A stretch of DNA of 64,000 nt from Labrenzia sp. THAF82 (GTDB lineage: Bacteria; Pseudomonadota; Alphaproteobacteria; Rhizobiales; Stappiaceae). The notes beneath the pieces were generated by a model. The model was given only the letters and a program-made list of their open reading frames with translations. It did no database searches and was not told the DNA's origin. The DNA is taken from the NCBI RefSeq assembly GCF_009363435.1, contig NZ_CP045354.1, forward strand, positions 62,001 to 126,000, given 5' to 3'. This document shows positions 4,651 through 21,025 of this stretch, piece after piece (the first letter of the stretch is position 1; every line of letters starts with the position of its first letter). Position numbers and translations under genes: made by a program.

Positions 4651-6269
4651 GACGTCTCCTCAGAATAGTGTTTTCTCAACGTGAGTTTTGAGACCTTGCC
4701 TGTTGCGGTTAGCGGAAGTGCATCCACAAATACGACATCGTCCGGCAGCTGCCATTTGGCGACACGTTCGGCGAGCCGGTCCAAGATATCCTGTTTTTGA
4801 GGCTGCGCGTCCTCACGGGCTTGCACAATAAGCATCGGGCGCTCATCCCATTTCGGGTCGGGCACAGCAATAACGGCACAGTTGGCGATGCCAGGATGCG
4901 ACATGACGATGTTTTCAAGATCCAGCGAACTGATCCATTCACCGCCCGACTTGATCAAATCCTTGGAACGATCGGTAATCTGCAAGAAACCATCGGGATC
5001 AATGGATGCAATGTCGCCAGTGCAAAACCAGCCTTCGGCGTCAAAAACAGGTTTGGACGCTTCTTCGTTTTCAAAATATCCGGAGGTGATCGTGTTGCCC
5101 CTCACATAAAGATGGCCGGGAGTTGAGCCGTCATGCGGCAGACGATTGCCATTGTCGTCAACGATTTTGAGATCAACCCCGAATACACGCCTGCCCTGAG
5201 ACTGTTTTCGGTCGACGCGCCGATCAAGCGGCATTTCATCCATGGACGGCGGCAGATTGCACTGCGTGCCCAGCGGACTCATCTCCGTCATTCCCCAGGC
5301 ATGACAGACGTTGACGTTTTTTTGTTCAAAGGCCTCAATCAAGGACCGGGAGGCGGCGGACCCGCCCACCACAATATCCGAGAATCTGTCCGGTAAGTGA
5401 CCGCGCTGGTTGATCTCGTTCAAGAGCCCGAGCCAAACCGTCGGCACACCCCAGGCCGACACAACCTTTTCACCATCCATCAGATCGAACAGGCTTTTGC
5501 CATCGAGCGCCCCACCTGGAAAAATAAGGCTGGCGCCTGCCAGAGGCGCTGCATAGGGAAGCCCCCAGGCATTGACATGAAACAGGGGAACGACAGGCAG
5601 AATACGAACGCCTTCGCGCAAGACCTTGGGGATCGTCACGCACAGACTTAACGCATGCAAGACCGTTGAACGGTGCGAAAACAGCGTGCCTTTTGGATTT
5701 CCCGTTGTGCCGGAGGTATAACAAAGACCGGCAGCTTGATCTTCTGGAAAGTCCGGCCAGTCGATTTCCTGCGGTTGTCCGTCCAGAAGCTCTTCATAGC
5801 AAAGCGCGCCTTGAAGTGTTGTCTCAGGCATGTGCGCCCGGTCTGTCATCACGACGATTTGCAGATTGTCCGGCAGATGCGCGCGCAGCTTTTCAACAAT
5901 CGGCACAAAGGTCAGGTCCACAAAGAGAACCCGATCCTGGGCATGACCGACAATGTAGGTCATCTGTTCGGCCGACAGCCTCGGATTTATGGTGTGGCAA
6001 ACAGCACCTGATCCGGATATGGCGTAGTAAAGCTCAAAATGCCGATAACCGTTCCAGGCGAGCGTTGCCACCCGGTCTCCTTCTGTCACACCAAGCGCTT
6101 TCAAAGCATGCGCAAGCTGTGCAATCCGGCCGGCAGTTTCCCGGTAGGTCGTCCGATGGATATCACCTTCGGTCCGCACGGAAACGAGCTCTGCAGACGG
6201 GTGATTTTCCGCTGCGAACGTGATGAGGTCCGCGATTTTCAGCGGACGGTGCATCATCATGCCCTTCAT
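4647..6269 (-). CDS. AMP-forming acyl-CoA ligase (long/medium chain)
   Basis: A 540-residue ANL-superfamily ligase. The P-loop-like motif [16 protein letters not shown] lies near residue 178, the A5 segment [12 protein letters not shown] near 325, [22 protein letters not shown] near 407, and the C-terminal lysine [13 protein letters not shown] near 525. It activates a carboxylic acid as acyl-AMP, then acyl-CoA, and is the probable first step of the pathway encoded downstream. The ATG at 6269 is chosen because GGAGG sits 6 bases upstream; a longer reading to 6392 has no such site. First gene of the six-gene operon. It also resembles DmdB-type ligases, so chain length is open. Confidence 0.9.
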
Positions 6270-6452
6270 GTGTTTCCTCCCAGAACACGCCCACGATTTT
6301 CGCGGTGCTTTTAAAGGGTTAAACATGAAACCTAGCGCGGCTTGGAGCACATAGAAAGGGGCGAAGACCGGAAACCCTTTGACAGCGGTCACCAGTTACG
6401 CCAAACCCTGCCCGAACACATCCAACCCTGATGGAATGATCGCGCTTTTCTC

Positions 6453-7400
6453 ATGACCCAGAAACTGGTCATTGCCGTTTGCACCGCGCAGCGGCCCAAG
6501 ATGCTGATGTCCTGCCTTGAAAGCCTTGAAAGGCTGGTCAGGCCGGCGGGGACCGAATTGTCGGTGGTTGTCGTTGAAAACGAAACCAAGCCGCATTTTA
6601 CCGGCAACACGGCAGAAGAAGTGCGGGAAAAACTTAGCGTGCCTGTCCATTTTTCTGCCGAGAAACGCAAAGGCATTCCGTTCGCGCGCAACAGCGCCCT
6701 GGAAGCTGCACTTGAGCAGGAACCAGACTGGATTGCCCTCATCGATGACGATGAACGTGCCGAACCGGACTGGATCGAAAAACTGCTATCCGCTTGCACG
6801 GCGTTTGATGCTGAGGTCGCCAATGGTCCGGTTCGCCGGATCTACGAAAAACCTGCGCCGCACTGGTGGAAGTCGCAGCTGCTCAAGCCACGGCCGACCG
6901 GTACGGAAATAACAGAGGCACCGACCAACAACATATTGATGAGCGCTCGCATTGTCGCCAACAGCGGCCTTGGCCTTCGCTTTGACGAACGCCTGACATT
7001 CGGCAGCGAGGACATCGACTTTTTTCGCCGCACACACGCAGCCGGTGTCAAAATGATCTGGGTGGACGATGCCTTTGTGGAAGAAGACATTCCAGCTTCA
7101 CGTGTCACCACCGGGCGGCTTCTCAGCCGCATGCACATGGCTGCAACCTCCGGCGCATTCAACATAGTATTGCGCGAAGGACGGCCGAAAGCAGCGCTGC
7201 ATTTCATCCCCAAAAGCTTCAGACGCATGTTCCTTGGGTCGCTGGCAACACTTGTTGGCTTCTTATTGAAACCCTTTGCCAAGAAGCGTGGTGAAAAACT
7301 TTACTATTATGGCCTGATCCGGTTGATGAAAGGGTCCGGCAATTTGCGTGGCCTGCTTGGCCGTGCCCACAACTATTATGATGTGATCGATGGCCACTGA
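6453..7400 (+). CDS. Glycosyltransferase family 2 (ExoM-like)
   Basis: A 315-residue GT-A enzyme. The N-terminal strand KLVIAVCTAQRP and the metal-binding ALIDDDE near residue 90 are clear, and the acceptor-side segment ending FGSEDIDFFRR sits near 190. The layout is like ExoM-type succinoglycan transferases. A hydrophobic stretch near 250 may be a membrane contact. It transfers a sugar from a nucleotide donor during surface-glycan assembly; donor and acceptor are unknown. It diverges from the CoA ligase operon and overlaps the following GT4 gene by 11 bases. Confidence 0.88.
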   Translation: MTQKLVIAVCTAQRPKMLMSCLESLERLVRPAGTELSVVVVENETKPHFTGNTAEEVREKLSVPVHFSAEKRKGIPFARNSALEAALEQEPDWIALIDDDERAEPDWIEKLLSACTAFDAEVANGPVRRIYEKPAPHWWKSQLLKPRPTGTEITEAPTNNILMSARIVANSGLGLRFDERLTFGSEDIDFFRRTHAAGVKMIWVDDAFVEEDIPASRVTTGRLLSRMHMAATSGAFNIVLREGRPKAALHFIPKSFRRMFLGSLATLVGFLLKPFAKKRGEKLYYYGLIRLMKGSGNLRGLLGRAHNYYDVIDGH

Positions 7401-8454
7401 TGCGCCGCTGCAACTGAAGAAGCTTGCCCATATTCACCTTGGCGTTGACGGCGGTGCGGAGAGGTTCTTCGTGCGCCTCACGCGGGCATTTGCCAAACGG
7501 GGCGTCGAACAGATCGCCTTCGTTCGCAAGGATCGGCCCTGGCGGGACGAACTCGCAGAACACTGCCAGGTGCGCGAGCTGACGTTCAGCCGATCACACA
7601 TCAAGCGCCATGTCATTCGCTGGAACATCGCGCGTCAGATCAAAGGCTTCGGAGCGCGCGTGACCATGGGCTGGATGAGCCCCGCAAGCAAATGGCTGCC
7701 GAAGCCCGGCCCAGACATGCGCACGTTCCTGCGTCTTGGCGACTGGCCGGACGGCTTTCACACATACGGCAATGTGGAGCAACTCATTGGCAACACGCCT
7801 GAGATCATCCGTCAGGCTGTAGAAATGGGCTGGCCCGAGGAACGGGCACACGTGATCAGCAACTTTGTCGACCCGCTGCCGGAAAACCTCCAGCCCGTGA
7901 ACCGAGCGGATTACAACACGCCGAACAATGCGACCGTGCTGATCCATTTGGGCCGCTTCGTGCAACGCAAGCGGTTCGACCTTGCCATTGAAGCTGTCGC
8001 GAGACTTCCAGAGACTGTCCACGCCTGGCTGATCGGCGATGGTGAGCTTTTGGACGACATGAAGGAACTCGCCAAAAAGCGCGGCGTCACAGACCGGGTC
8101 CATTTCCTTGGTTGGCAGCGCGATCCGGCCTCTTTCTTGAAGGCCGCCGATATTCTTCTCTGTCCCACGGACGAAGAACCCCTCGGCAACGTCGTCCTGG
8201 AAGGCTGGAACGCCGGCTTACCCGTCGTTGCCACCGCTTCACCCGGCCCGAGCTGGTTGATCGAACATGGGAAGACGGGACTGCTCAGTCCCTGTGGGGA
8301 TGTGGATGGACTGGTTGAGTCCATAGAACGCATGCTTTGCGAAAAACACCTAGCTCAAAACGTGAAGGAAGCAGGCGCAGCTTGGCTTGAGCGTGAGTAC
8401 TCAGAAACTGGCATAGTCGCCAAGTATGATGAACGGCTAAATTCGGAAATTTAG
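7390..8454 (+). CDS. Glycosyltransferase family 4
   Basis: A 354-residue GT-B enzyme. The N-terminal GVDGGAERFF loop (about 17-26) and the C-terminal donor site LCPTDEEPLGNVVLEGWNAGLPVVA near 257-281 with the E-x7-E signature are visible, as is the strand ILIHLGRFVQRKRFDLAIEA-like block near 180. GT4 enzymes are retaining transferases common in lipopolysaccharide core assembly. The start overlaps the end of the GT2 gene by 11 bases, so both are probably co-translated. GC content is normal here, unlike the genes after 9500. Confidence 0.9.
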   Translation: MATDAPLQLKKLAHIHLGVDGGAERFFVRLTRAFAKRGVEQIAFVRKDRPWRDELAEHCQVRELTFSRSHIKRHVIRWNIARQIKGFGARVTMGWMSPASKWLPKPGPDMRTFLRLGDWPDGFHTYGNVEQLIGNTPEIIRQAVEMGWPEERAHVISNFVDPLPENLQPVNRADYNTPNNATVLIHLGRFVQRKRFDLAIEAVARLPETVHAWLIGDGELLDDMKELAKKRGVTDRVHFLGWQRDPASFLKAADILLCPTDEEPLGNVVLEGWNAGLPVVATASPGPSWLIEHGKTGLLSPCGDVDGLVESIERMLCEKHLAQNVKEAGAAWLEREYSETGIVAKYDERLNSEI

Positions 8455-8474
8455 CGACTTTCATAGCCTGAAAA

Positions 8475-9179
8475 TCAGGTCAACCTATCATAATAATAGC
8501 ATTTCCGCAGAGCCTTGATCTCCGAAAAGCCTTTGTCGGAAAGATACTTGCGCAGTGCGTCGATTTTCTCTGCCCCGACGATATGTGGATGCATCTCGAT
8601 GATGATTTTTTTGACCTCATCTAGATTGCATGTCCGGAGAAGATCGATTTCAGCGCCTTCAGCATCCATCACAATCACCGATGGTGCATATTCCTCGATC
8701 ACTGTGGAAATGGCATCTGCCTGAACGCGCGTGGCACCGCCATGTTGTCGGTCGATCAATGATGAGGACAAGACGCTTTCATCAAAAAAGAACTCAATCT
8801 CGCCCGCCTCAACAGCCAGAACTTTGCAGCGCAAATTCGGCTCCAGCCCATTCAGCGCATAGTTCTTCTCAATGACACGTTTCATCGCTGGGTTCGGTTC
8901 GTAAGACAAAATACTGTCGGCACCGCAGATTTGTGCGCAGGCGATTCCGATAAACCCGATCCCGGCACCAACTTCCAGCACGCGATCGGAAGGCTCCAAC
9001 GCCATGCGAACCAGCTCCAATTCTTCGCTTTCATATCTTTTTTGAAAAAGCTGCTTCCGCACGCCCTTGGGCACATCCTGCAAATCGGTCGTGAGTTGAA
9101 TGCCACTTAGACTGATTAGTTTGAGATCCAACTTCCGCCGGATTTTATAGGCCAGACTGGCCAACGTTTTTTCGAACAT
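8475..9179 (-). CDS. FkbM-family methyltransferase
   Basis: A 234-residue SAM-dependent methyltransferase. Motif I is VLEVGAGIGFIGIA near residue 76, the acidic loop LSYEPNPAMKR follows near 101, and VIVMDAEGAEIDLLR near 168 is the FkbM hallmark. FkbM proteins O-methylate sugars, polyketides and other hydroxyls; in a glycan cluster a sugar hydroxyl is most likely. It converges on the GT4 gene with 20 bases between, a gap that holds a small CCTGA-AAA-TCAGG stem. Start is ATG at 9179. Confidence 0.85.
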   Translation of the reverse strand: MFEKTLASLAYKIRRKLDLKLISLSGIQLTTDLQDVPKGVRKQLFQKRYESEELELVRMALEPSDRVLEVGAGIGFIGIACAQICGADSILSYEPNPAMKRVIEKNYALNGLEPNLRCKVLAVEAGEIEFFFDESVLSSSLIDRQHGGATRVQADAISTVIEEYAPSVIVMDAEGAEIDLLRTCNLDEVKKIIIEMHPHIVGAEKIDALRKYLSDKGFSEIKALRKCYYYDRLT

Positions 9180-9506
9180 CTATTATGCTACCCGTTAGCA
9201 ACAACCGACGCAGCTTGCTCATACTCAAAAGGACCACTTACGATCAAATCGCGCTTCTCCTTTCGGATGAGGACGGCAAATACGCAAACGCTGCTGCAAA
9301 GTCCAGCTCAAGGATAAAAACCCTATTGGGGCCTCATTATGCGGGATCTCAAAAATCAGCGGCAATTCCAACAAATTTCTTTCCTGTCAACACTTATGAT
9401 TGGAGCACAAAGAAAAATGCAATAAAGCGCTTTTCTCCGGACTTGTTATAAAGCGAAGATCACCACCGCAAGAATTGATTCATCATTCCCTCAGACAAAA
9501 GACGAA
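9180..9506. other. AT-rich gap without a convincing gene
   Basis: This 327-base stretch lies between the FkbM gene and the next methyltransferase and marks the point where base composition turns AT-rich. An 88-codon reading at 9185-9451 has no recognisable family, no good ribosome site and no membrane or signal features. It probably contains promoters for the genes on both sides. Confidence 0.5.
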
Positions 9507-10244
9507 ATGCCCAACAAATTGAAGACGTATCGTAGAAAAATCAAAAAAACTATTCGAGAGATAGTTAGACTTATTTTTTACACCCCAGAAATGAACAAAA
9601 TTTCTGAAAATAGCGATACTTATTGGGAAATTCGAAAGGGTGGACAATTCGACCATTCGCTCAATTCGTTTCAGTCTTTTCGCGCCGAATGGATGACCGA
9701 ACGTATCGAAGATGGTTCAACGCTCCTTGATATCGCTAGCGGCGAAGGGAAGATTCTTAAATACATCCAAGACAACAAAAATGTTCAAGCTACTCCAACG
9801 GAAAACTCTGAGATTTGCCTTAACTACTTGAAAAAAAATGGGTTTAAACCAATAAAAATGGATCTATCTGATCCTAACTTTTTTGGAGAGCTTTCACGAT
9901 ATGACCACGTACTTCTTTGCGAGATTCTAGAACATCTTCCTAATCCTGAAAAAATACTCAAACTGACAATCTCAAAGACAAATAAGTCAGTTTTTTTTAG
10001 CGTCCCAAACACTGGTTATTTCCCCTATCGAATAAGACTTTTGTTCGGTCGCTTTCCAATGCAATGGCGAGCACATCCAGGAGAACATCTCCGCTTCTGG
10101 ACTCTCAGTGACATGAAGTGGTGGCTTCGTCAGCTCGACTTGGAAGAACGATCAACGATCTGCTGTTATGAAGGTATTCCATTCTTCAAAACGGTTTGGC
10201 CTTCAGTTTTTTCTGCAGCAATGATCATCGAAGTTAAGGTTTGA
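9507..10244 (+). CDS. Class I SAM-dependent methyltransferase
   Basis: A 245-residue Rossmann methyltransferase. SAM motif I reads TLLDIASGEGKIL near residue 72, followed by an acidic TPTENSE and the post-motif LLCEILEHLPNPEKIL near 136. This pattern fits the Methyltransf_11/23 group that modifies sugars or lipids. The coding sequence is notably AT-rich, with AAA, ATA, AGA and TTT codons far commoner than in flanking genes, which is a sign of transfer. It shares a 4-base overlap with the following GT4 gene. Substrate unknown. Confidence 0.82.
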   Translation: MPNKLKTYRRKIKKTIREIVRLIFYTPEMNKISENSDTYWEIRKGGQFDHSLNSFQSFRAEWMTERIEDGSTLLDIASGEGKILKYIQDNKNVQATPTENSEICLNYLKKNGFKPIKMDLSDPNFFGELSRYDHVLLCEILEHLPNPEKILKLTISKTNKSVFFSVPNTGYFPYRIRLLFGRFPMQWRAHPGEHLRFWTLSDMKWWLRQLDLEERSTICCYEGIPFFKTVWPSVFSAAMIIEVKV

Positions 10245-11353
10245 GTGTGAATATCCTGATCGTAGGAACACGTGCAGATCAAAGAGACGGTTGGGGCAAA
10301 TACTGCTCGATGCTCCGCATGGCACTTTCACAACGAGCGAATATCGAAACTAAGCTAGCGATTAGCAATCTGAGTTCTAAAACAGACCTCGAAAATAGTG
10401 ATTTTCAAATCAGATCCAATAGACGCCTCAATGTACGTAGGCGCGACTTGATAGTTGATCTGCTCAGAAATTGGCACCGGTGGCGTGCAGCCGATATAAT
10501 TGTTGCCGCCGATGAGCTTTCCGCTCCAGTTTGTGCTTTCGCATCAATCCTCTTCAAAAAACGATTGATGCTAGTAATCCACGGGACCTATGCAATCCGA
10601 TGCTTGGATTGCAAAAAATCAAAACTTTACCGGCAAGCATACAGCGCTGCGGCCTCGATCATATCCGTCAGCAACTATACAAAGGCAAGACTGTCGGCGC
10701 GACTACCTCAGATTTCTGAGAAAGTTCATGTTGTGCCACTTGCAGCTCTGCCCAGTCCTATATCTCGACCCACCCAGCAACTGGCTGAAAACCACTTCTG
10801 CGTCGTCGGCGGCCTGAAACCTCGCAAAGGCGTAATGAGTGCCATAAAGTCATTAGAGATACTGATAAGGAAGGGGCAAGATGTTCGCCTAGTAGTGGTG
10901 GGTGAGCAGTCGCACAATGATAGCTATGTCAAGAAAGTAATGGATTATGTTGCCAATGCGGATATTAGCGATCACATCACATTCTCTGGCTTTGTGTCAG
11001 AGGACGAAAAAAATCATATCGTAGCGACATCCATTGCTAATCTGCTGCCCTCAGAGAATGTTGGCGATGCATTCGAAGGTTTTGGTTTTGTTCACTTGGA
11101 AGCGGGTTTGTTGGCTGTGCCGACAATCGGCAGTCTGAACTGCGGTAACGAAGATGCCATCCGCAACGGCAAAACTGGTTTTCTGCTAGAGCAAGGTGAC
11201 GTTCAAGGTTTGGCGAAACGCATGGACGATTTTGTCACAGACAATGAACTTCGTAACAGGATCGGTCTGCTCGCTCAGGACTTCGTTTTCGGTTGGACCT
11301 GGCAGGACATCGCATCCGAGTTCGAGAGACTGGCAACCATCGATGGAAAATGA
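10241..11353 (+). CDS. Glycosyltransferase family 4
   Basis: A 370-residue GT-B transferase. The start is unusual: a TTG overlapping the previous stop as TTGA at 10241, with a GTG two codons further as alternative. It has an N-terminal loop TRADQRDGWGKY near residue 9, KPRKGVMSAIKSLEIL near 193, and the donor-site block LLPSENVGDAFEGFGFVHLEAGLLAVP near 268-294. The protein is AT-rich like its partner methyltransferase. Its role in surface-glycan assembly is inferred from family and neighbours. Confidence 0.88.
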   Translation: MSVNILIVGTRADQRDGWGKYCSMLRMALSQRANIETKLAISNLSSKTDLENSDFQIRSNRRLNVRRRDLIVDLLRNWHRWRAADIIVAADELSAPVCAFASILFKKRLMLVIHGTYAIRCLDCKKSKLYRQAYSAAASIISVSNYTKARLSARLPQISEKVHVVPLAALPSPISRPTQQLAENHFCVVGGLKPRKGVMSAIKSLEILIRKGQDVRLVVVGEQSHNDSYVKKVMDYVANADISDHITFSGFVSEDEKNHIVATSIANLLPSENVGDAFEGFGFVHLEAGLLAVPTIGSLNCGNEDAIRNGKTGFLLEQGDVQGLAKRMDDFVTDNELRNRIGLLAQDFVFGWTWQDIASEFERLATIDGK

Positions 11354-11411
11354 GGTTTTTCTGAAGTATGTGGATGCGCTCAATACAAACCGCTGACTTG
11401 GCTGGTCGATG

Positions 11412-13094
11412 TCATGGCAGCCAAACGTATCGCTCCAATTCTTTATCCACCAATGGTCGCCCTTTATGCTTGCGATGTATCGTTTCGATCACTTTACGCA
11501 AGGGGTCGTCGAGGCTAGCGGCATAAACCGCCGCACGCCCATCGCTTTCCAGCAGATCTTTGATCGACCAGGCAGGCATCGAGGGCACGACAAGAGCTGA
11601 ACGGTTAAGCAGAAGGACGGGTTTGCGGCCTTCAAGAGCGTCAAACATAACAGATGTTAGCCCCTCAGTCACAACCAAATCCGCATTTTCCAAATACGTT
11701 TTGTGCGAACCGAAAGACGCATCAATGATGCCATTGGAAGGGTCCAGGACATGCTGGACATCTTGCGGGTAGAGTCCCCTATTTTCGAAAAATCGACCCT
11801 TTTGTGCTGTGTCTCTGGTGGTTGTTTTAATCCGCAAAAATAACTCGATTTGAGATATGTCGGCAACGACTGCACAGAACTTTTCGATGCACCGGACCGT
11901 GTCGAAACAACTTGGCGATATACCCCAAAGGTTCTGCGGCCAGGGAAGGAAGTTTGGCGCATAGTACAATTTGAAGGTGGATCCATTTTCAGTCGGCACG
12001 TTCGCAAGCACGGTGACATGTGGAAGTTTCTCAACCATTTGCCGGTTGTCGGATTTTTGAACCTGAAGCGGTGAACGCGGCACCAAGTGAGACATAGAAG
12101 GAGCGCTGTTAAAGTGGCCTGCGCCAATCGTATCGACAATCTTGTGCCGAGGCGTATTCCCATAGGACATTAGCGCGCCGTGACTGTACAAACGGCATTC
12201 GACATTTGTTTCGTGTAAGGCAGACGCAAAGCCTGCCAACCCTTCGTCGCGAACGTGGTTTAGAATGGCGCTCCTTGGCAAACCGTTCCTTTTCAGAAAT
12301 CCCGCCATTGCAGCACGATACGATGAAAAACCCGTCGCCGCTTGCTGGATAGTCTGCAGCACATAATCATACTCTGTTGCGGAAAGACCAACGTTCGACA
12401 AGTCGAGTCGCTCCACACAGTCGGGCACAAGGGCTTTCGGCACGTCCAGCGCCACTTCAAAGCTAGGTCGAAACGTTCTTTGTTTCCAAGCGCTCCGAAG
12501 CGCTATGCGATGCAAGGACACCGATTTCTTGCCAGGTGATGGTTTGATGGCAATGTTTATCAGCCCCTCCTCAGAAAGGGGTAACTGTTTGCCACTCAGC
12601 GAGCGAAAGTCCAGCCTGTATTCCCGGCCCCAGATCACTCCAGGCCCTTCGATAGCACTCAGATTATATTCTGGTGCTGCTGGAGCTGCAGAGAGAGGTA
12701 CAGGCTTTTCAATTGGTAGATACCTATCGAGCGCATCGCCTGCTGTGTAATAGATTTCGGTTTCAAGACGATTCCTGAGACGCTCCCTGAAATAGAACGC
12801 AAGCAAAGCCTTCGCTACCTTTGTCAGCACTGCCGATCTGAGATCTGCTGGCCAAGACCCTTCGGTCTTGCCGCAGACGGCTTCCAGCACACGCCATGCC
12901 TGATCGAGGTTTTCAGAGAGAAGATCATCGGACACGAAGTTACTCAAACAAAGATAGTCAACTCGTCGGATTCGCAACTCGTGTGCAATATGCGCAGTGC
13001 CGGCAGCGATCCGATAGCCGTCGCGTAGAAAGTCCTGCACGCAGTCCAAGTCGCGCACATGGCAAAGCACTACAGTCTTGTCGTAATGTGTCAT
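11412..13094 (-). CDS. Unrecognised GT-B-like surface-glycan protein
   Basis: A 560-residue protein that I cannot assign to a named family. The C-terminal part has a fold pattern of CDP-glycerol/capsule-type GT-B transferases: an RLYSHGALMSYGN histidine loop near 305, and near 480 the block ADLVVTEGLTSVMFDALEGR followed by KPVLLLNR, which looks like a nucleotide-sugar site. The N-terminal 270 residues show no recognised motif. The ATG at 13094 is preferred to a TTG three codons earlier. It is the only minus-strand gene between two plus-strand blocks of the glycan island. Likely function is transfer of a sugar or polyol phosphate, with modest certainty. Confidence 0.65.
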   Translation of the reverse strand: MTHYDKTVVLCHVRDLDCVQDFLRDGYRIAAGTAHIAHELRIRRVDYLCLSNFVSDDLLSENLDQAWRVLEAVCGKTEGSWPADLRSAVLTKVAKALLAFYFRERLRNRLETEIYYTAGDALDRYLPIEKPVPLSAAPAAPEYNLSAIEGPGVIWGREYRLDFRSLSGKQLPLSEEGLINIAIKPSPGKKSVSLHRIALRSAWKQRTFRPSFEVALDVPKALVPDCVERLDLSNVGLSATEYDYVLQTIQQAATGFSSYRAAMAGFLKRNGLPRSAILNHVRDEGLAGFASALHETNVECRLYSHGALMSYGNTPRHKIVDTIGAGHFNSAPSMSHLVPRSPLQVQKSDNRQMVEKLPHVTVLANVPTENGSTFKLYYAPNFLPWPQNLWGISPSCFDTVRCIEKFCAVVADISQIELFLRIKTTTRDTAQKGRFFENRGLYPQDVQHVLDPSNGIIDASFGSHKTYLENADLVVTEGLTSVMFDALEGRKPVLLLNRSALVVPSMPAWSIKDLLESDGRAAVYAASLDDPLRKVIETIHRKHKGRPLVDKELERYVWLP

Positions 13095-13281
13095 TTGGTC
13101 CAAGTATTGTGCCGTGTCAGCCGTGGATTACCCTGACCTTCATTCGCAATAACGCTGCGAAAAAACCAAGCTTGGATCGGCTTTACACGCCCCCACTCAC
13201 AAACACCAGACTTCACCCAGGATTGTGTGCTTGCTTCGGAATTGCAGCTGTGCAAATTATGAGCCAGAGGCGCAATTGCGG

Positions 13282-13313
13282 ATACCCCTAAGATCTGTGA
13301 TTTGTCGGGGTAT
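13282..13313. other. Inverted repeat ATACCCC / GGGGTAT
   Basis: ATACCCC at 13282-13288 and GGGGTAT at 13307-13313 form a perfect 7-base inverted repeat with an 18-base spacer. It lies in the 291-base divergent gap (13095-13385) between the GT-B-like gene and the amidotransferase. It could be an operator or a 5' leader hairpin; nothing else was recognised in that gap. Confidence 0.35.
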
Positions 13314-13385
13314 ATTCAACTCGACTAATAGATTCCGACTTCACACAACCAGTTCACACTGCGCAAAGGTAAAAATCAGCCCCAG

Positions 13386-14792
13386 ATGTGCAGCTTTATT
13401 TTCTCAACAATCGCCCCAACTTCGTCCGACTTCAATCGGATTATGACTTTGCGCGGCCCGGACTATACCCAAAGTAACACAATTGGCGGCATGTTCTTTT
13501 GCCACAACCTGCTCTCAATGCGGGGAAACTATGTTCCCCAGCCGTATATATCCGAAGACGAAACCATAATCGTAATGTTCAATGGAGAAATATACAATTG
13601 TCCGGAAGAATACGCCAGTGAAGCTCACTACCTTTTTGATCTATACTTAGAGTTTGGCTCGGAATGCTTCGCCAAATTAGATGGCGAATTTGCGATAATT
13701 ATCGCTGACTTTAAAGATAAATTGGTGTCCGTTGCAAGAGACTGTTTTGGAACGAAACCCTTGTTTTTTGGCGCTCATGGTGATGAATTTGGATTCGCTA
13801 GCTATCGAGACCCCCTGGAAGTTCTGGGTTTTGATGAGATTAGACAGCTTAAACCCAACCACCTTATCGAAATGAGCCTCGACGGCTCGAGAATTGTTGA
13901 ACGCCAAATCTATACCTTCAACATCGCCCAATACAAATCAGACTCAAGCGACTGGATGGCAGCCTTCGATCAGGCTGTCGCAAAACGCGTCAAACACATG
14001 CGTGGAAAAGCTTTTGTTGGCATGTCTAGCGGTTACGATAGTGGGGCGATCACTGCATCCCTGATCGCTCAAAAGAAAAGCTTTATGACTGTCACTGTTG
14101 AAGGGCGCGAAGATCCCGACATTGTCAATTGGCGGATCGAGGCGGTGGAACGTTCAGGAAATCAAGCGATTAGAATCCATGAAACTGAACTAAAACTAGA
14201 AGAACTCCGTGAATGGATTGAAAACTACGTCGAAGATCAGCCATACAACATAGTCAACGATTCTGGCGAAAGCTTCAGTTCGGGCAAAAGTATCCACAGA
14301 GACAACGCGGCACTCATACTCGCAGGCGTCTGCATGAGGGCAAAAAATGACGGCGCGCTAGTTTATCTTTCTGGGAGCGGGGCCGACGAAATCTATTCCG
14401 ACTACGGCCACGGTGGACGAAAATACTTTGCGCACAGCAACTTTGGCGGCATGTTCCCTAACAGTCTGCTCGGACGTTTTCCCTGGTCCTCCTTCTACGG
14501 AAGCACTCAGGCCGCTTATCTTGCGAAGGAAGAAATGGTCGCAGGTTCCTTCGGCATGGAAGCGCGCTACCCATTTCTTGACCTAGCAGTCGTACAGGAG
14601 TTTCTAAACCTGAAGGCAGATATCAAAAACAACCAATACAAATCTGTTATTCGGGAGTACTTGGATGCACAGGAATTTCAAGTAAAAGAAAACCAAAAGA
14701 TTGGCTTCGGATTTACCCGCTCAAATTCTGCACAATCTACAAATACTAGAGCGGTTCGAAAGAAGAAGAAATCCATTTTTAAAATTTGGTGA
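13386..14792 (+). CDS. Asparagine-synthetase-like amidotransferase
   Basis: A 468-residue class II glutamine amidotransferase of the AsnB family. Cys2 (MCSF) becomes the nucleophile after Met removal and fixes the start. RGPD near residue 25, FNGEIYN near 63, LDGEFAI near 97 and CFGTKPLFF near 117 complete the glutaminase half. The synthetase half has the ATP loop SSGYDSG near 216 and SGSGADEIYSDYG near 330, then ARYPFLD. The family makes asparagine, but in glycan loci relatives such as WbpS amidate uronic acid sugars; that is the favoured role. At 468 residues it is shorter than AsnB (about 550-650). The gene is AT-rich. Confidence 0.85.
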   Translation: MCSFIFSTIAPTSSDFNRIMTLRGPDYTQSNTIGGMFFCHNLLSMRGNYVPQPYISEDETIIVMFNGEIYNCPEEYASEAHYLFDLYLEFGSECFAKLDGEFAIIIADFKDKLVSVARDCFGTKPLFFGAHGDEFGFASYRDPLEVLGFDEIRQLKPNHLIEMSLDGSRIVERQIYTFNIAQYKSDSSDWMAAFDQAVAKRVKHMRGKAFVGMSSGYDSGAITASLIAQKKSFMTVTVEGREDPDIVNWRIEAVERSGNQAIRIHETELKLEELREWIENYVEDQPYNIVNDSGESFSSGKSIHRDNAALILAGVCMRAKNDGALVYLSGSGADEIYSDYGHGGRKYFAHSNFGGMFPNSLLGRFPWSSFYGSTQAAYLAKEEMVAGSFGMEARYPFLDLAVVQEFLNLKADIKNNQYKSVIREYLDAQEFQVKENQKIGFGFTRSNSAQSTNTRAVRKKKKSIFKIW

Positions 14793-14865
14793 TCGGACAG
14801 TTTTCATGAAAGACGCCGCTTCTTCCTAACAGAGCGAAGCTGGTGAACGGTCAGAGGATACCGAT

Positions 14866-16023
14866 TTGACAAAGATTTGCATTTTTACCGCGGCCTATAG
14901 AGAAGCCCATCATACCTTTGTGAACTTTCATATTGAAAACCTTTTCGAAGGTAGCGCAAGTGTCTGCTGTACTGAAGAGATAGGCAATCAGGGCTCCACT
15001 CGCAATCTGCTTGTTAGAACCAATGTCGCAAGATCTCCATGGCACAAGCTTCAAGTGAAGCTGGGGACGTTCGTCAGAAAACGCCGAAAACTACCAATCC
15101 GGGGCATCTATGGTTCGGAACGCTCTGCTATAATCAACTTTCTTCAGGCTGAAAAGATCGATGTCGTGCTCTGCGAATTCGGTTGTATCGGCTCGGAAGT
15201 GGCTGAAAGCATTAGCGGCACGGGAATACCGATCTATTCTTATTTCCGCGGCTATGATGCAACAGCGCGCCTCAGCTCAGCAAAAGAACGCCGGTTCTTG
15301 GCGCGTACAGTCCCAAAGCTAAAAGGAGCATTCTTCGTTTCTCGCTACCTTCTTAACAACCTCGCCCAGTACGGGATCAGAAACCCTAACAGTCACGTCA
15401 TTCCAAGCGGAGTCAACACTGACGAATTTGTTCCCGGCCAAAAGAACAAGGGCACATTTTTAGCGGTAGGAAGCCTCATCGAGAAAAAACGGCCAGACAT
15501 CACCGTTGGGGCTTTTTGCCGCGAAGCAAAAACACACCCGAGAGCGAGGCTAACAATAATTGGTGGTGGTCGGATGCTTACACAGTGTCTAGCGATTGTC
15601 AAAGAGCATGACATGGAAGATCAGGTTCAATTTCTGGGCGAACAACCGCATGACATAGTGATGAATTACCTACGAAAGTCCGAATTCTTTCTGCAACACT
15701 CGGTAACTGGCTCCAATGGCGACGGCGAAGGAGCTCCTACGGCAATTCAAGAGGCCTTGGCGTGCGGTTGCGTGGTGCTTTCAACGCGGCACGCCGGAAT
15801 TCCAGAATTGGTGACCGATGGAGAAACTGGCTTTTTAGTCGACGAGTTGGATCAAGCCGGTTTCCAGGGATTGATCAAATCCGCACTACAGGATGAAATC
15901 GATGTTTGCCGGATCGCCAAGCAGTCTAGGGAGCACTCAGTCCAGTACCTTGATAATAGAGCCCTGATCAAAAAACTTGAAGGCGTTCTAAGCCGCGCTA
16001 CAGCCGTGGAAGCTCTTTCGTGA
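14866..16023 (+). CDS. Glycosyltransferase family 4
   Basis: A 385-residue GT-B transferase with a TTG start at 14866, preceded by AGAGG. The donor-site block GDGEGAPTAIQEALACGCVVL near 284-304 carries the E-x7-E-type acidic pair, and VGSLIEKKRPDITVGAF near 201 is the second Rossmann entry. The presence of EFGCIGSEVA and YFRGYDATAR resembles colanic-acid-type transferases (WcaL/AmsK). It overlaps the next gene by 4 bases (GTGA), so the two are coupled. Donor sugar unknown. Confidence 0.9.
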   Translation: MTKICIFTAAYREAHHTFVNFHIENLFEGSASVCCTEEIGNQGSTRNLLVRTNVARSPWHKLQVKLGTFVRKRRKLPIRGIYGSERSAIINFLQAEKIDVVLCEFGCIGSEVAESISGTGIPIYSYFRGYDATARLSSAKERRFLARTVPKLKGAFFVSRYLLNNLAQYGIRNPNSHVIPSGVNTDEFVPGQKNKGTFLAVGSLIEKKRPDITVGAFCREAKTHPRARLTIIGGGRMLTQCLAIVKEHDMEDQVQFLGEQPHDIVMNYLRKSEFFLQHSVTGSNGDGEGAPTAIQEALACGCVVLSTRHAGIPELVTDGETGFLVDELDQAGFQGLIKSALQDEIDVCRIAKQSREHSVQYLDNRALIKKLEGVLSRATAVEALS

Positions 16024-16847
16024 AAATTATCCAAAAATTCAAAAATCGTCGCCTTAGGCACCTAACAAAAAGTATTCTGAAGGCTCGTGGAGAAGCGTAT
16101 GCTGTTCAGTTCAACAAAAAGGCCCGTCAACTGAACCTGACAGTTCGCGTAGAGTGGAATGGATGTTTTTATACGGTTCGCGATGAAACTCTACCCGACT
16201 TCTCGTACAACTTTTGTCATGAACGACAAGGGCATCTTGCCTACGCAAACGGACTTATAACACGTGCGAACAACTTGGGAGCCGCCTACTTTCTTTCGAA
16301 AATTGATTTCAAAGATGGAGACTGCGTTTTTGATTGCGGTGCGAATGTTGGTGATTTTAAGCTCTGGTTCGAGATCAATAAACTCAAAGTCGATTATTTC
16401 GGTTTTGAGCCAAGTCCGAACGAATTTGCGTGTCTCCAGGTAAATGTAAAACCGGGCGTCGCCCACAATGTCGGACTTTGGGATCGCGACGGGGAGATGA
16501 CATTCTATGTCAGTTCCCAAGGTGCCGATTCAAGCCTGATAGAGCCACCGGATTATGATGAGATGGTTGTCGTACAGAGCCGGCGCCTAGAACAATACAT
16601 AGATAGAAAAATCAAACTCCTCAAACTTGAAGCCGAAGGTGCCGAGCCCGAAATATTGAATGGAATAGGGGAAAATTTAGACAAAATCGAGTATATTACT
16701 GCCGATCTTGGATTTGAACGAGGCGTTAGACAGGAAAGCACACTTGTTCCAGTAATCAACTATTTACTAGCTCGAGATTTCGAACTGATCGAGGTCGGCC
16801 ATCGACGAATTTGCGCACTGTTCAGGAACAAATCATTTAACAGTTAA
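16020..16847 (+). CDS. FkbM-family methyltransferase
   Basis: A 275-residue methyltransferase starting with GTG within the stop of the preceding GT4. SAM motif I is CVFDCGANVGDF near residue 102, with FGFEPSPNEF near 122 and the FkbM signature LLKLEAEGAEPEILNG near 199. It probably O-methylates a sugar made or placed by the neighbouring transferase. Codon use is AT-rich. The gene ends the AT-rich part of the island and converges on the minus-strand transferase that ends at 16875. Confidence 0.87.
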   Translation: MKIIQKFKNRRLRHLTKSILKARGEAYAVQFNKKARQLNLTVRVEWNGCFYTVRDETLPDFSYNFCHERQGHLAYANGLITRANNLGAAYFLSKIDFKDGDCVFDCGANVGDFKLWFEINKLKVDYFGFEPSPNEFACLQVNVKPGVAHNVGLWDRDGEMTFYVSSQGADSSLIEPPDYDEMVVVQSRRLEQYIDRKIKLLKLEAEGAEPEILNGIGENLDKIEYITADLGFERGVRQESTLVPVINYLLARDFELIEVGHRRICALFRNKSFNS

Positions 16848-16874
16848 TACGATGATCGAAAGTGATGGCGATAA

Positions 16875-17981
16875 TTAACCACCGATATCGCGCATGAGCC
16901 CGCATTCAATGAGCGAGTCTACTCCAGTGAATTTCTTACTTCCGCTGATAAACAATCCTTCATTCATAAGCCTGTTCAGTTGGGTTTTGTAGTCCCGATA
17001 GTGACCCGCATTGTCAGTATGTTGCTTTCTCTCCAGTGCTTCTGTAACCTTACTCTGGAAATCGTCCAAATACTTGAAATGCAGAAGAACACCCCACTCA
17101 GGTGCAATGCTGATCTTCTTGTCAATTCCATGAACCCCGCCGGAGAACATGTAGCCATGATCCCATTTCAGAAGTGGGACTTTGCTCTGTACCGCAGCCG
17201 TATCCGGTACGGCGCTCTTCACCAACTTGAACAGAAATTGATCGCACCTTCGTCCTAGATCGCTTTCTGGAGCCCGTGTGCGGATCGAAAAAATGAGGGA
17301 AAGGAGTCCCTTGTCCAGCCAAGTCTTTCGCCGTTTCGCATTCTGGTGAAACAGCCTTTCACGAGTTCCTCCAAAAATATGCCGCGCGGGCGTCTTGTAA
17401 CGCTTACCGTGGCTTCCTTTAAGTGGATTGTATCGATATCCCTTGGGGTCAAAATATGAGCACCCGTCAAGAAAGCTATCACCGGCTTTATAGCTAAATT
17501 GCTTCAGCGGGCCCTTGGGATACATGTCGACCATTGGACAAAAAAGTGCTTGAAATTGCCGATTGTCCAATGAGCTGACCAGATCATCAATCTTCCGCCC
17601 GGGCCAACCAGGATAGACCAAAAGTTCATCAACGTCTGGGAACAGCGTCCAACGCCCAAGCAAATACCGTTCACATAGCAACTGCCGCCAAACCGATTTG
17701 TATTCGCTGTAGGGTTTTTCAGTTCGAATAACACTCACATCTGATTGGGCCGCAAGGAAGTCTGACGTGCCGTCATTCGACATGTTATCGACTACAACGA
17801 AGTGACGAATGCCGAGTTCGCGATAGTGTTTTAGAAAAAATGGGAAACGGAGAGCTTCATTGAACGCTAGTATCACTGCAACGACACCGTCGGCCGGAAT
17901 GATAAGCGCGTCGGCATCGAGCGCTCCGAATGCTTCCATAATACGATGCTGGATCAACGTTCCGGTTGACTGATCGATCAT
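16875..17981 (-). CDS. Glycosyltransferase family 2-like (Glyco_tranf_2_4)
   Basis: A 368-residue protein of the group with the block VILAFNEALRFPFFLKHYRELGI near residue 36, then VVDNMSNDGTSDFL and the metal-site-like LFPDVDELLVYP near 115. Such proteins are usually GT-A transferases of surface polysaccharides. A GTG at 17990 is possible, but AGGTG located 6 bases before the ATG at 17981 favours the shorter form. It directly follows the sulfotransferase gene, so both likely act on the same glycan. Confidence 0.8.
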   Translation of the reverse strand: MIDQSTGTLIQHRIMEAFGALDADALIIPADGVVAVILAFNEALRFPFFLKHYRELGIRHFVVVDNMSNDGTSDFLAAQSDVSVIRTEKPYSEYKSVWRQLLCERYLLGRWTLFPDVDELLVYPGWPGRKIDDLVSSLDNRQFQALFCPMVDMYPKGPLKQFSYKAGDSFLDGCSYFDPKGYRYNPLKGSHGKRYKTPARHIFGGTRERLFHQNAKRRKTWLDKGLLSLIFSIRTRAPESDLGRRCDQFLFKLVKSAVPDTAAVQSKVPLLKWDHGYMFSGGVHGIDKKISIAPEWGVLLHFKYLDDFQSKVTEALERKQHTDNAGHYRDYKTQLNRLMNEGLFISGSKKFTGVDSLIECGLMRDIGG

Positions 17982-17990
17982 TGATCGCAC

Positions 17991-18788
17991 CTAGCCGGCA
18001 AAAAAGAGGTTTCTGGTCGCTGGTGTATCGAAATCGAATCCGAACAATTCAATGTCGACGGCGTACCAGTCTGCAACAATTTGCAGCGTTTCGCGTGTAT
18101 AGATTTCACGATAATCGGTCTGCGCACCTGTGCTGATGTTTCTGCGTTTCAGACTAGATTTCAGGCCTAAATAACGCCCAAGTTCGTCACCCAAATATTC
18201 TTGGCGAAGGATGTCAGGCACAATTCTTTCATTTTCATCGACGACATAGTCTCGTTGTGGATACCAACTTCGGATTGCTCTGTGCCAATAATATGGCTCC
18301 GTACCAAAAGAGTAGCGCTCCGCTAAGAACCTCTCAAAAGTGGATTTGTTGTAGTCTGCCTTTCCGGCACCATTATTGCGCGTCTGTAGCGCAAACTTAA
18401 AACGAGATACCGTTCTGGACCACGGGTTTCGGACAATGGCAAATGCGCGGCACGCTTGTCTGACACAAACATCAATATCGCGATAGCGGGCGTGTTCATA
18501 GGCTGGCGTCGCGCCCTTTTTCGACATGTGTTCCTTGAGGCCATCTGCATAGTTCTTGCTAACCAATCTTCTTCGGTTGGCTATGATCAAACATCTTTGC
18601 AGTTCTGCGGCGTGCCTGATCGCCATTCCACCATTTTTGGGAATATGAACAAACAGTCGTTTTCTTGGAACAAGGCCCAACCTAACTGGCACGAATTTCA
18701 AGAAATTCTTAAGTTGATACTCGTCCATACCGCCGGTTTCTTCTTCTTTTTCATTGTTCAATCGGACCGTATAGAACCGATTCTTCAT
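17991..18788 (-). CDS. Sulfotransferase family 2 protein
   Basis: A 265-residue protein with the PAPS 5'-phosphosulfate loop LFVHIPKNGGMAIRHA near residue 44 and the 3'-phosphate motif AFAIVRNPWSRTVSRFKFA near 116. This matches the Sulfotransfer_2 group, which sulfates carbohydrates. A sulfated surface glycan is therefore plausible. An ATG twenty codons downstream (18728) is an alternative start; neither has a strong ribosome site. It is followed without a gap by the GT2-like gene. Confidence 0.82.
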   Translation of the reverse strand: MKNRFYTVRLNNEKEEETGGMDEYQLKNFLKFVPVRLGLVPRKRLFVHIPKNGGMAIRHAAELQRCLIIANRRRLVSKNYADGLKEHMSKKGATPAYEHARYRDIDVCVRQACRAFAIVRNPWSRTVSRFKFALQTRNNGAGKADYNKSTFERFLAERYSFGTEPYYWHRAIRSWYPQRDYVVDENERIVPDILRQEYLGDELGRYLGLKSSLKRRNISTGAQTDYREIYTRETLQIVADWYAVDIELFGFDFDTPATRNLFFAG

Positions 18789-18840
18789 TCTGCATTAGTT
18801 GCTCAAACCCTCCAACACGGGTTGCAACGATGAGAGAACC

Positions 18841-19749
18841 TCACCGCCTCATGTCGATGCAGTGATGCCTTATCGCAATCTGCCAGGACTGTCCATTTCT
18901 GGGTTCGCCGTCGAGATTGAACTGGACTGATTTTTCGGTTTCGATCTGAACATGGCGAACTCTTCGCATGATTAGACCATGCGTCAGATCGTCAGCTCCT
19001 CTGTCGAGGAGAGTTTGGAGGAGGTCGATGGCCTTTCCCGATTTTGGGAAAGGCAGGATTGTCAGGTCGAGGAAACCGTCATCCAGTTTGGCACGGGGGC
19101 AGAGGCGAATGCCGCCTCCGGCGCGGCGGCCGTTGCCGATGGCAAGCGCAAGAAAAGCGCCTTCCCACTCAAACCCTTCTGCCTCGATCCGTGCCTGGCA
19201 GGCTGCTAGCTCGGAAAAGCGGTTGAGACCGGTAAATAGATAGGCAGCCCCGCCCAGCACGCGCTTCAGGTTGGGATCGGTCTGTGCCGTGACCTGCGTG
19301 CCGAACCCTCCAGTTGCCATATTGACGAAGGAACAACCGTTGACCTCTCCGATATCCATCGGTTTGGCGCTGGCCCTGGCGGCAAATCGCAAACAGGAAG
19401 TGATGTCTGAAGGGTCAAGGCGAATGTGCCGTGCAAAATCATTGGCGGTACCAAGTGGCAAAACGGCAAAGGCGAAAGGGGGGCTTTCACCCTCCGGCAC
19501 GCTGTGCAGAACGGCATCCACTACCTCGTGAAGCGTTCCATCGCCGCCACCACTGACCAGCGTGTCGATCTTTTGATCTTCATGATCCCTGAGGGCTTCC
19601 TGAGCCAACCGGGTGAAATCTCCGGCTTCGAAGGTGACCCGAACGGATACCTCGTGTCCCATGGCCCGCACCGCCTCAACAGCAGAACGTACGTCGCTCC
19701 GGCCAGCAGATTTACCGTTTAGGATCAGACGCAGATGCTGTTTGTCCAA
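18841..19749 (-). CDS. YegS-type lipid kinase (DAGK catalytic domain)
   Basis: A 302-residue diacylglycerol-kinase-fold protein. The GGGDGTLHEV nucleotide loop is near residue 67, followed by LPLGTANDFAR near 96, both diagnostic of YegS and related lipid kinases. These enzymes phosphorylate phosphatidylglycerol, diacylglycerol or sphingoid lipids. The start is TTG at 19749, set by AAGGA about 7 bases before it and by alignment of the first strand LRLILNGKSAG. Regulation is not visible. Confidence 0.9.
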   Translation of the reverse strand: MDKQHLRLILNGKSAGRSDVRSAVEAVRAMGHEVSVRVTFEAGDFTRLAQEALRDHEDQKIDTLVSGGGDGTLHEVVDAVLHSVPEGESPPFAFAVLPLGTANDFARHIRLDPSDITSCLRFAARASAKPMDIGEVNGCSFVNMATGGFGTQVTAQTDPNLKRVLGGAAYLFTGLNRFSELAACQARIEAEGFEWEGAFLALAIGNGRRAGGGIRLCPRAKLDDGFLDLTILPFPKSGKAIDLLQTLLDRGADDLTHGLIMRRVRHVQIETEKSVQFNLDGEPRNGQSWQIAIRHHCIDMRR

Positions 19750-19944
19750 GGTTCTGTCCTTTCTGCCCGGGTGTTCGCGGTGATGTCTTCAGATCCGGTT
19801 CAGATAACCGATTGCACGGCGCATGTGGAGATGTTTCGAGCCAGATCAAGCGGCAGTCCAGTTTCAAGGTGCAGCACTCCGACCGTTGAGACGCGGCGGC
19901 AACGTCGTGCCCGGAACATTCGCAAGCATAGCCGTCTTTGAAGG

Positions 19945-20868
19945 TCAGCCAGGGAGCATGGTGTCCCGTGCGGTACGCGCAGCACGGGCTTCTTCCATCA
20001 ACCATTGGCGAAATGCGGAAACAACCGGTCGCATGGTGCGCCCTTCCGGATAGACAAAATAATAAGCACTTTGTTGCTGCACAGAAAGGTCGAACAGGCG
20101 CACCAGACGGCCGGAAGAGAGTTCCGCCTCGACGAAAAAGCGGGGAATGAGCGCAGCACCCGCATGATGGATGGCGGCCTCCGAGATCATGACAAACTGT
20201 TCGAAACGCGCGCCTTGGAACGCTGCATCGGTTTCCACACCGGCAAGTTCGAACCATTGCCTCCAGGCAAACGGTCTCGTCGCCAGTTGCAGTCGCGGCA
20301 CGCGGACAAGGTCCATGGGCGACCGAATCTCGTGCCTGTCCCGAAATGCCCGGGACGCAACCGGAATAACCTCTTCGTCGAACAAGTGTTCGGCGATCGC
20401 TCCGGCCCAGACCGGATCTCCATGATGAATTGCTCCATCGAACGGTTCTTCACTAAAATCGAAAGGCTGCAGGCGAACACTCAAGTTCAATCCGGCATCC
20501 GGATAACGGCGCGCAAAGCCTGCGAGCCGGGGAGCAAGCCATCGTGTGCCGAAGGTCGGCAGAACGGCAAGGTTCAGGACGTCTGCGCTACCGGCATAGG
20601 ACATGACCTGGCGCGTGGCAGCAGTCATCTGCTCCAGGGCGCCGCGGATGTCGTGCAGATAAAGCCGGCCGGCGTCAGTCAGCACTATGCGCTGCCGCAC
20701 ACGGCGAAACAGCTCCACGCCAAGTCTGTCTTCCAGTTGGCGCACCTGTTTTGAGATCGCGCCCTGTGTCAGGTGCAGCTCTTCTGCGGCACGCGTGAAA
20801 CTCAAATGTCGAGCTGCGCATTCAAAGGCGATCAGCGTATCGGCAGTCGGGACGAATGCACGGCGCAT
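19945..20868 (-). CDS. LysR-family regulator, GcvA-like
   Basis: A 307-residue regulator with an N-terminal winged helix (FECAARHLSFTRAAEELHLTQGAISKQVR, about 14-42) and an effector domain from about residue 95. The start is placed at 20868 because AAGG precedes it and GcvA-type proteins begin MRR-x-P; an ATG at 20901 would add eleven residues and has no ribosome site. It diverges from gcdH, with a dyad in the gap, and probably controls it in response to a glutaryl- or lysine-derived effector. Effector is inference. Confidence 0.9.
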   Translation of the reverse strand: MRRAFVPTADTLIAFECAARHLSFTRAAEELHLTQGAISKQVRQLEDRLGVELFRRVRQRIVLTDAGRLYLHDIRGALEQMTAATRQVMSYAGSADVLNLAVLPTFGTRWLAPRLAGFARRYPDAGLNLSVRLQPFDFSEEPFDGAIHHGDPVWAGAIAEHLFDEEVIPVASRAFRDRHEIRSPMDLVRVPRLQLATRPFAWRQWFELAGVETDAAFQGARFEQFVMISEAAIHHAGAALIPRFFVEAELSSGRLVRLFDLSVQQQSAYYFVYPEGRTMRPVVSAFRQWLMEEARAARTARDTMLPG

Positions 20869-20915
20869 AGCAATTGCCTTCAGATCATTCCATTTTGTCA
20901 TGAATGATGGAGCAG

Positions 20916-20939
20916 GTTTCGCTTTTCTGCAAACGAAAC
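20916..20939. promoter_or_regulatory. Candidate LysR-type operator
   Basis: GTTTCG (20916-20921) and CGAAAC (20934-20939) form a perfect 6-base inverted repeat with a 12-base spacer, in the gap between the LysR gene and gcdH. LysR-type sites are usually dyads of this spacing. The flanks extend the symmetry with one bulge (GCAG on the left, CTGC on the right). Confidence 0.55.
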
Positions 20940-21025
20940 TGCACTAAAACCAGAGGAAACAGAATGAACACCGGTACGAGACACCGAATTCAGAAGCCTC
21001 GACAGCCCCGCGGGAGAACACAGTC

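Follow-up and report, generated by a model that had tools for sequence, protein, structure and literature searches.

A replacement-type surface-glycan island of Roseibium with a mobile pair of AsnB-like enzyme and glycosyltransferase

Here we describe a group of surface-glycan genes at positions 6453-18788 of a 64,000-nucleotide window of Labrenzia sp. THAF82 (positions 62,001 to 126,000 of contig NZ_CP045354.1, forward strand), whose genome is a single contig of 6.4 Mb. All coordinates count from the first letter of the window. The stretch holds eleven open reading frames (g01-g11), every frame being open, and comparison with Pfam and NCBIfam gives five glycosyltransferases, three methyltransferases, an AsnB-like enzyme, a sulfotransferase and one orphan. 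A preliminary description had listed the same genes at the same coordinates, and both reading frames and families agree with it. Judged from sequence, the family matches of the eleven proteins are beyond chance, except for the label "GT-B-like" given to the orphan.

On the left, an AMP-binding acyl-CoA synthetase-like gene (4647-6392, minus strand; function assigned by eye) forms a fixed flank that adjoins g01 in filled islands. The constant left end of the island is g01 (6453-7400, plus), a GT2 glycosyltransferase matching Pfam Glycos_transf_2, and it is followed by the GT4 glycosyltransferase g02 (7390-8454, plus; Glycos_transf_1). Next come an FkbM-type methyltransferase over the TIGR01444 cut-off (g03, 8475-9179, minus), a MetW/Methyltransf_23-like methyltransferase assigned by family match (g04, 9507-10244, plus; 39% G+C), a second GT4 glycosyltransferase assigned by Pfam (g05, 10241-11353, plus) and the orphan, a 563-residue protein that is a possible GT-B transferase (g06, 11412-13103, minus). 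The AsnB-like enzyme, divergent, compact and ending in a basic C-terminal tail, is encoded by g07 (13386-14792, plus), and its partner, a third GT4 glycosyltransferase, by g08 (14866-16023, plus). Beside this pair lies another FkbM-type methyltransferase over the TIGR01444 cut-off (g09, 16020-16847, plus), and the right part comprises a Glyco_tranf_2_4 glycosyltransferase matched in Pfam (g10, 16875-17990, minus) and the near-constant g11 (17991-18788, minus). The latter scores 26.5 bits against Sulfotransfer_2 (cut-off 22), has no NCBIfam match at E <= 1e-10 and nothing significant among PDB sequences (best E 0.29); by family it is a sulfotransferase, predicted to sulfate the glycan. The right flank is a YegS-type lipid kinase gene (18841-19749, minus; over the PRK13054 YegS cut-off).

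The G+C content is 55-59% in g01, g02 and those flanking genes that were measured, but only 39-52% in g03-g11. Flippase, polymerase and sugar-nucleotide families found no match among g01-g11 in Pfam and NCBIfam (g11 lying outside the main NCBIfam scan), as the preliminary description had stated. A Wzx/Wzy-type O-antigen cluster would include both a flippase and a polymerase, and a standard cluster of this kind in the window is ruled out, since neither family is present among g01-g11. A scan for promoter-like sites (9 versus 11.5 expected) and terminator-like sites (21 versus 15.0, standard deviation 4.1) was uninformative.

The segment between the flanks is exchanged as a block. One genome of the same species (G048) was available for comparison, and it is 98.85% identical to the window (genome G000) over 1-8310 and 98.9% identical over 18835-37117. 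Between these borders, positions 8311-18834 are replaced, with only 14232-14602 and 17330-17534 alignable, at ~74% identity. The two island versions thus hold different genes of similar function within one species, each with glycosyltransferase, methyltransferase and sulfotransferase genes. Against a more distant genome (G009), identity is 89.9% up to 9179, where g03 starts, and 89.7% from 18836, with nothing aligned in between. The left border therefore differs, falling inside g02 (at 8310) in the first comparison and after g03 in the second; the right border is next to the stop codon of the YegS gene both times (at 18835 against G048). Hence, this is a replacement-type surface-glycan island of Roseibium, an island of a known kind. 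The segment between g02 and the YegS kinase gene would be swapped among strains through the conserved flanks, presumably by homologous recombination. Mobile-element cargo with an integrase, a transfer RNA (tRNA) gene or long flanking repeats is ruled out: mobile-element families are absent from the 12 window proteins g01-g12 (other islands were scanned in part), the 64-kb window has no tRNA gene, and the only repeats found are short and imperfect.

The same place is used across the genus. We matched the flank genes in a sample of 45 Roseibium genomes (left flank at E <= 1e-150, right flank at E <= 1e-30), detecting the AMP-binding gene in 36 and the YegS gene in 42. In 30 of the 45 genomes a single contig carries both flanks, 0.3-37 kb apart, with 25 sites filled and five empty; the distance is ~0.3 kb in five (G001, G003, G004, G006 and G007), 2-8 kb in three and ~10-37 kb in 22. 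Outside these 30 sites are four genomes with the flanks on different contigs (G019, G058, G017 and G024), two in which the right flank was not found (G013 and G022, the pieces of the latter being read separately) and nine without a left-flank match at the threshold. Island genes were called with a home-made program that shortened some starts (for example those of g05 and g07) and left gaps, so that island counts depend on the caller; cluster membership means linkage at >= 40% identity, and genes outside the profile scans were named by eye.

Counted in this way, the island has constant ends and a variable middle. The left gene g01 is present in all 25 filled islands (in one at 39% identity), g02 in 24 and g11 in 22. 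In the genus as a whole, g01 is matched at E <= 1e-40 in 38 of 45 genomes, in 28 of them at >= 75% identity and in ten at 37-42%. Gene calls place g10 in 15 filled islands, with one more recovered by tblastn, and g03 in 11; the g09 cluster occurs in six, three of its members being 35-40% identical to g09, and g07 and g08 occur in four. Finally, g04, g05 and g06 are exclusive to the island of the window among the 25, and the further loci that we read (whole genomes were not searched for these two) contain no close relative of g04 or g05. The preliminary description had taken the genes to travel as one unit and had offered comparison of the gene set in relatives as a way to refute this. That comparison went partly against it, in that relatives share the place but only part of the gene set, and the differing presence of genes over the filled islands rules out one co-inherited unit of eleven genes. 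It gives way to an island whose ends are constant, whose sugar modules are swapped and in which the g07-g08 pair is mobile.

The sugar modules are visible in other versions of the island. Homologues of RfbF and RfbG, of the cytidine diphosphate (CDP)-glucose pathway, are present in 15 of the 25 filled islands, and those of Gmd and Fcl, of the guanosine diphosphate (GDP)-fucose pathway, in seven; 18 islands carry one set or both, in the same slot. Scanned representatives exceed their family cut-offs, except for Fcl at 493 of 500 bits. Neither set is found in the remaining seven, which include the island of the window; in two of these (G042 and G012) other sugar genes were recognised by eye, and in a third (G002) no gene was called over a 6-kb stretch. 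The absence of sugar-nucleotide genes noted earlier thus holds for g01-g11 but is a trait of this allele. Elsewhere, at 1.78 Mb, the genome of the window has an rmlABCD set for deoxythymidine diphosphate (dTDP)-rhamnose, and it contains no CDP-glucose dehydratase over the cut-off.

In the variable middle, g07 and g08 form a unit that travels, with methylation as its usual companion, and this mobile pair is the new part of a locus that is otherwise of known kind. A g07 match (E <= 1e-40) was found in eight of the 45 genomes, and g08 (E <= 1e-25) in the same eight (Fisher exact test, 4.6e-9, a value that ignores shared ancestry). Seven genomes have 75 to ~1,070 bases between the two genes; in G022, g07 is split over two contig ends and g08 is beside one of the pieces. 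Four genomes have the pair in the hot spot (G000, G048, G023 and G059), two have it beside genes that look by eye like a cytochrome and a flavoprotein (G016 and G050), and G041 has it at a third chromosomal place, which makes at least three places. An FkbM-type methyltransferase, belonging to one of three subtypes, adjoins the pair in seven of the eight genomes, G050 being the exception. Moreover, pairwise identities of g07 and g08 are strongly correlated (r 0.91, permutation p 0.0002, 28 pairs). Between the window and G048, g01 diverges by 1%, yet identity is only 68% in g07 and 53% in g08, and the gene order is another one; therefore, two separate versions of the pair occupy the same slot.

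In wider searches, most relatives of g07 were distant. A search of plasmids matched 215 records, each below 60% identity, and among the best 80 of 170 wider relatives only two loci (L034 and L035) belong to its subfamily, the rest being at most 40% identical. One of these (L034:677-2053), on a contig labelled as a Desulfobacterales metagenome-assembled genome, encodes a homologue 71% identical to g07 and adjoins a GT4 glycosyltransferase other than g08 together with genes that look by eye like housekeeping genes, an arrangement that reflects either horizontal transfer or mis-binning.

The g07 protein (468 residues) matches GATase_7 and Asn_synthase in Pfam and is built on the AsnB plan. Its AlphaFold2 model, made from 12 sequences (predicted local distance difference test, pLDDT, 75.6; predicted template modelling score, pTM, 0.81), superposes on AsnB (1ct9) over both domains (Z 34.2, root-mean-square deviation 5.2, 415 residues aligned), and 1ct9 is also the best match among PDB sequences (E 1.3e-8); the two proteins are 20% identical. 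Pfam and the model agree on a two-domain fold of N-terminal nucleophile glutaminase and ATP-pyrophosphatase. Cys2, RGPD, NGEIY, the P-loop (SSGYDS) and an invariant Lys are kept. The motifs FCHNLLSMRG and LSGSGADE recur in all ten subfamily loci read (two of these probably come from one genome). The protein has an extra segment at about residues 280-300, and each of the nine loci that were read as far as the gene end encodes a lysine-rich tail. The g07 protein is a putative amide-forming enzyme, and since it was found only with g08 in the 45 genomes, its chemistry is predicted to be tied to the residue that g08 adds.

The orphan g06 has no match to Pfam, NCBIfam or PDB sequences, and its single-sequence structure model (pLDDT 33) is unusable. 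It found nothing usable in plasmids, phages or viral contigs, only itself in 397 genomes of the order, and two weak matches, in frames with stops, in a phylum sample of 398. In the class sample, six of 384 other genomes gave weak matches at E <= 0.01, four of which, from alphaproteobacterial genomes, cover the last ~110 residues. Aligned, this C-terminal part shows an invariant ADL.V....T pattern, in a region that we take to resemble the donor half of GT-B enzymes, and one such relative weakly matches DUF6716, a putative glycosyltransferase family, at E 0.014, under the cut-off. The earlier label of GT-B-like is therefore softened to a possible GT-B transferase, suggested by remote relatives. 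Three neighbourhoods of these relatives, from which eight neighbour proteins were picked after looking, gave one or two family matches each: KdsB in one, NeuC with a PseF-like gene in another, and a PseG-like gene in the third (KdsB and NeuC over their cut-offs, PseF-like and PseG under). The sample is small and was selected by hand, from loci in which genes of this sort are common; it suggests a cytidine monophosphate (CMP)-linked keto-sugar as the donor of g06, as a lead only.

The scarcity of membrane proteins bears on how the product would be assembled. We counted predicted membrane spans in 367 called proteins of 31 islands, including that of the window, five empty sites and one island cut by a contig end. 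Only five proteins have three or more spans: two PRK-type kinase-domain membrane fusions, two MsbA-like exporters and one small protein; a Wzy_C control protein gave eight. No Wzx or Wzy was identified in the 31 islands, the one type with 9-11 spans having a membrane part outside any family, and this agrees with the earlier proposal that the island probably builds on an existing acceptor. The fusion, in two 37-kb islands (L031:1959-4001 of G023 and its G059 homologue), has 681 residues, with the 9-11 predicted spans joined to a phosphoribulokinase/uridine-kinase domain (390-568), and is unusual in a glycan locus. The same 37-kb glycan islands contain the exporter whose best family is MsbA_lipidA (L032:7581-9389 of G023 and its G059 homologue), and in G023 a NeuB-like gene (371 of 400 bits) and a PseF-like gene lie near it.

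We therefore favor, with a probability of roughly 0.55, a replacement island that builds a non-polymerised oligosaccharide on lipid A-core and is exchanged between conserved flanks. The product is most likely a short, sulfated, methylated and probably amidated oligosaccharide. In the cytoplasm, the glycosyltransferases g01 and g02, then g05, g08, g10 and perhaps g06, would add sugars to an acceptor that is already present, most likely lipid A-core. The AsnB-like g07 would form an amide on the residue added by g08, most likely a uronic acid, an FkbM enzyme would methylate that residue, and g11 would add sulfate. The finished molecule would then leave with lipid A-core through MsbA. Such stepwise cytoplasmic assembly with MsbA export is the simplest reading, with a glycoprotein or branches on an exopolysaccharide as less likely alternatives.

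Several observations weigh against parts of this proposal. The five genomes with empty sites have no g01 match at E <= 1e-40 anywhere, and therefore the island product is dispensable in the genus. Our literature search recognised no paper on a surface-glycan structure of Roseibium, Labrenzia or Stappia, so the acceptor is a guess. Seven of the 31 islands have stretches of more than 700 bp lacking a called gene, in which a membrane protein could be missed, and the MsbA-like exporter scores 482 of 602 bits, under its cut-off, and is present in only two of the 25 filled islands. Divergence of g07 and of g08 correlates weakly with that of chromosomal g01 (r 0.43 and 0.40, p ~0.04 each), so that some shared descent with the chromosome remains. 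Peaks of single-nucleotide polymorphisms (SNPs) beside exchanged islands are described for replacement flexible genomic islands of aquatic bacteria (PMC4033161); against G048 there is no clear peak at either border and at most a slight rise on the left. Counted in full 500-bp windows, the last two on the left hold 9 and 12 SNPs, compared with a mean of 5.6 over 16 windows, and the first on the right holds 8, compared with a mean of 5.3 over 35. This tells against the event being very recent, or against the adjoining flanks having undergone simple homologous exchange.

The chemistry assigned to g07 also meets objections. The glutamine pocket of AsnB consists of Arg49, Asn74, Glu76 and Asp98, according to the section of PMC11296641 that treats it. 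In g07, NGE of this pocket is kept, the Asp98 position is Glu (beside a gap in the alignment), and the Arg49 position is Leu, where nine of nine AsnB-like comparators have Arg; without the full pocket, we class the protein as AsnB-like only. It is far under the asparagine synthase cut-off (106 of 267 bits), and under that of the WbpS-type family eps_aminotran_1 (58.3 versus 816.9 bits). The amidated product of the preliminary description thus keeps its AsnB-like enzyme, and its amide step is uncertain because the subfamily has Leu for the expected glutamine-binding Arg.

Taken further, this evidence could mean that g07 is not a plain glycan amidotransferase, but uses another nitrogen donor, couples an amine or amino acid, or has a dead glutaminase half, a view that we consider doubtful yet deserving of serious attention. 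The Leu is found in all ten subfamily loci, as is the Ser of LSGSGADE, where the nine comparators have Glu (four), Asp (three) or Gln (two), and among the structural neighbours of g07 are beta-lactam and carbapenam synthetases, enzymes that act without glutamine. However, Cys2, RGPD, NGEIY, the P-loop and the invariant Lys are all retained, the second-motif position varies among the comparators too, and an invariant Arg four residues past Ser-Met (SMRG) might replace the lost Arg49. A more specific and decidedly tentative version is that g07 and g08, usually with the FkbM enzyme, constitute a mobile module based on a new AsnB subfamily with a rebuilt glutamine pocket, which would couple an amine or amino acid, rather than forming a plain uronamide, to the carboxyl of the sugar added by g08, at the membrane by way of the lysine-rich tail.

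Other explanations concern the acceptor, or whether there is a joint product at all. Attachment to a protein such as flagellin or a surface protein, by cytoplasmic glycosyltransferases before export, would need neither polymerase nor flippase. Neu/Pse-type genes, which are common in flagellin glycosylation, occur in the island of G023 and beside the remote relatives of g06, with no homologous NeuB-like gene recognised in G059. We consider a protein acceptor unlikely, given that inspection by eye of the reading frames of 1-26000 revealed no flagellar or other acceptor-protein gene and that an MsbA-type exporter in two islands favors a lipid-linked product. Alternatively, the island enzymes could supply side branches and decorations for the Wzy-dependent exopolysaccharide of a separate locus at 4.30-4.32 Mb (L159). 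This locus, centred on 4.31 Mb, has the only Wzy_C match of the genome along with a priming transferase (Bac_transf), Poly_export and Wzz-like (under its cut-off) proteins, and a single GT4 among the five proteins scanned, so that glycosyltransferases may act from elsewhere. This is quite improbable for an island with constant ends of its own that is swapped as one block and is physically unlinked to that locus. Finally, the low and uneven G+C content (39-52%), the mixed gene orientation and the three genes missing from the other 24 filled islands could mean that the low-G+C middle part is a patchwork of foreign genes in decay, with no product in common. However, none of the eleven frames is interrupted, g07 and g08 retain their motifs and partnership across large divergence, and the same-species genome holds its own, differing version of the pair at this site, which makes decay very improbable.

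The island resembles the replacement flexible genomic islands and O-chain clusters of aquatic bacteria, as far as the relevant parts of these reports describe them (PMC4033161, PMC11898729), in occupying the same place with different genes of similar function within a species, in serving an exposed structure and in having borders at conserved genes. Unlike them, the Roseibium islands have no identified Wzx or Wzy, subject to the gaps in gene calling, the site is empty in five relatives, no clear SNP peak marks the borders, and the g07-g08 pair is also found at other chromosomal places. For g07 itself, AsnB-like amidation of surface sugars has a precedent in WbpS, in the passages concerned of PMC7468200 and PMC6025236, the former assigning WbpS to eps_aminotran_1. 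Like the uronic acid amidotransferases WbpS, WbqG and PGN_1234 treated there (PMC7468200, PMC6025236), g07 is of AsnB type and stands in a surface-glycan set with glycosyltransferases; unlike them, it is under the eps_aminotran_1 cut-off, compact, and equipped with its own motifs, an extra segment and Leu for Arg. With AsnB (1ct9) it shares the domains, their order and overall fold, Cys2, NGE, the P-loop and Lys, and it differs in the Leu at Arg49, SGSGADE for SGEGSDE, the extra segment and the basic tail.

Roseibium are marine bacteria that commonly live in association with algae and corals, and the genus gains a defined surface-glycan locus that varies among strains, has mapped borders and is usable for typing and for work on phage and host interactions. 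The part of most specialist value is the enzyme pair, which is testable, the AsnB-like protein being seen only alongside one glycosyltransferase in 45 genomes.

Other islands add proteins of their own. Two clusters recur with the GDP-fucose genes, in five (C21, L116:7074-8348 of G043) and six (C20, L116:10827-11570) of the 25 filled islands, and match no Pfam family at E <= 0.001. In G023, a 600-residue protein (L031:6452-8251) has its best Pfam stretch on the first half alone and no NCBIfam family at E <= 1e-20; by eye it consists of two nucleotidyltransferase-like halves, and it is present in two islands.

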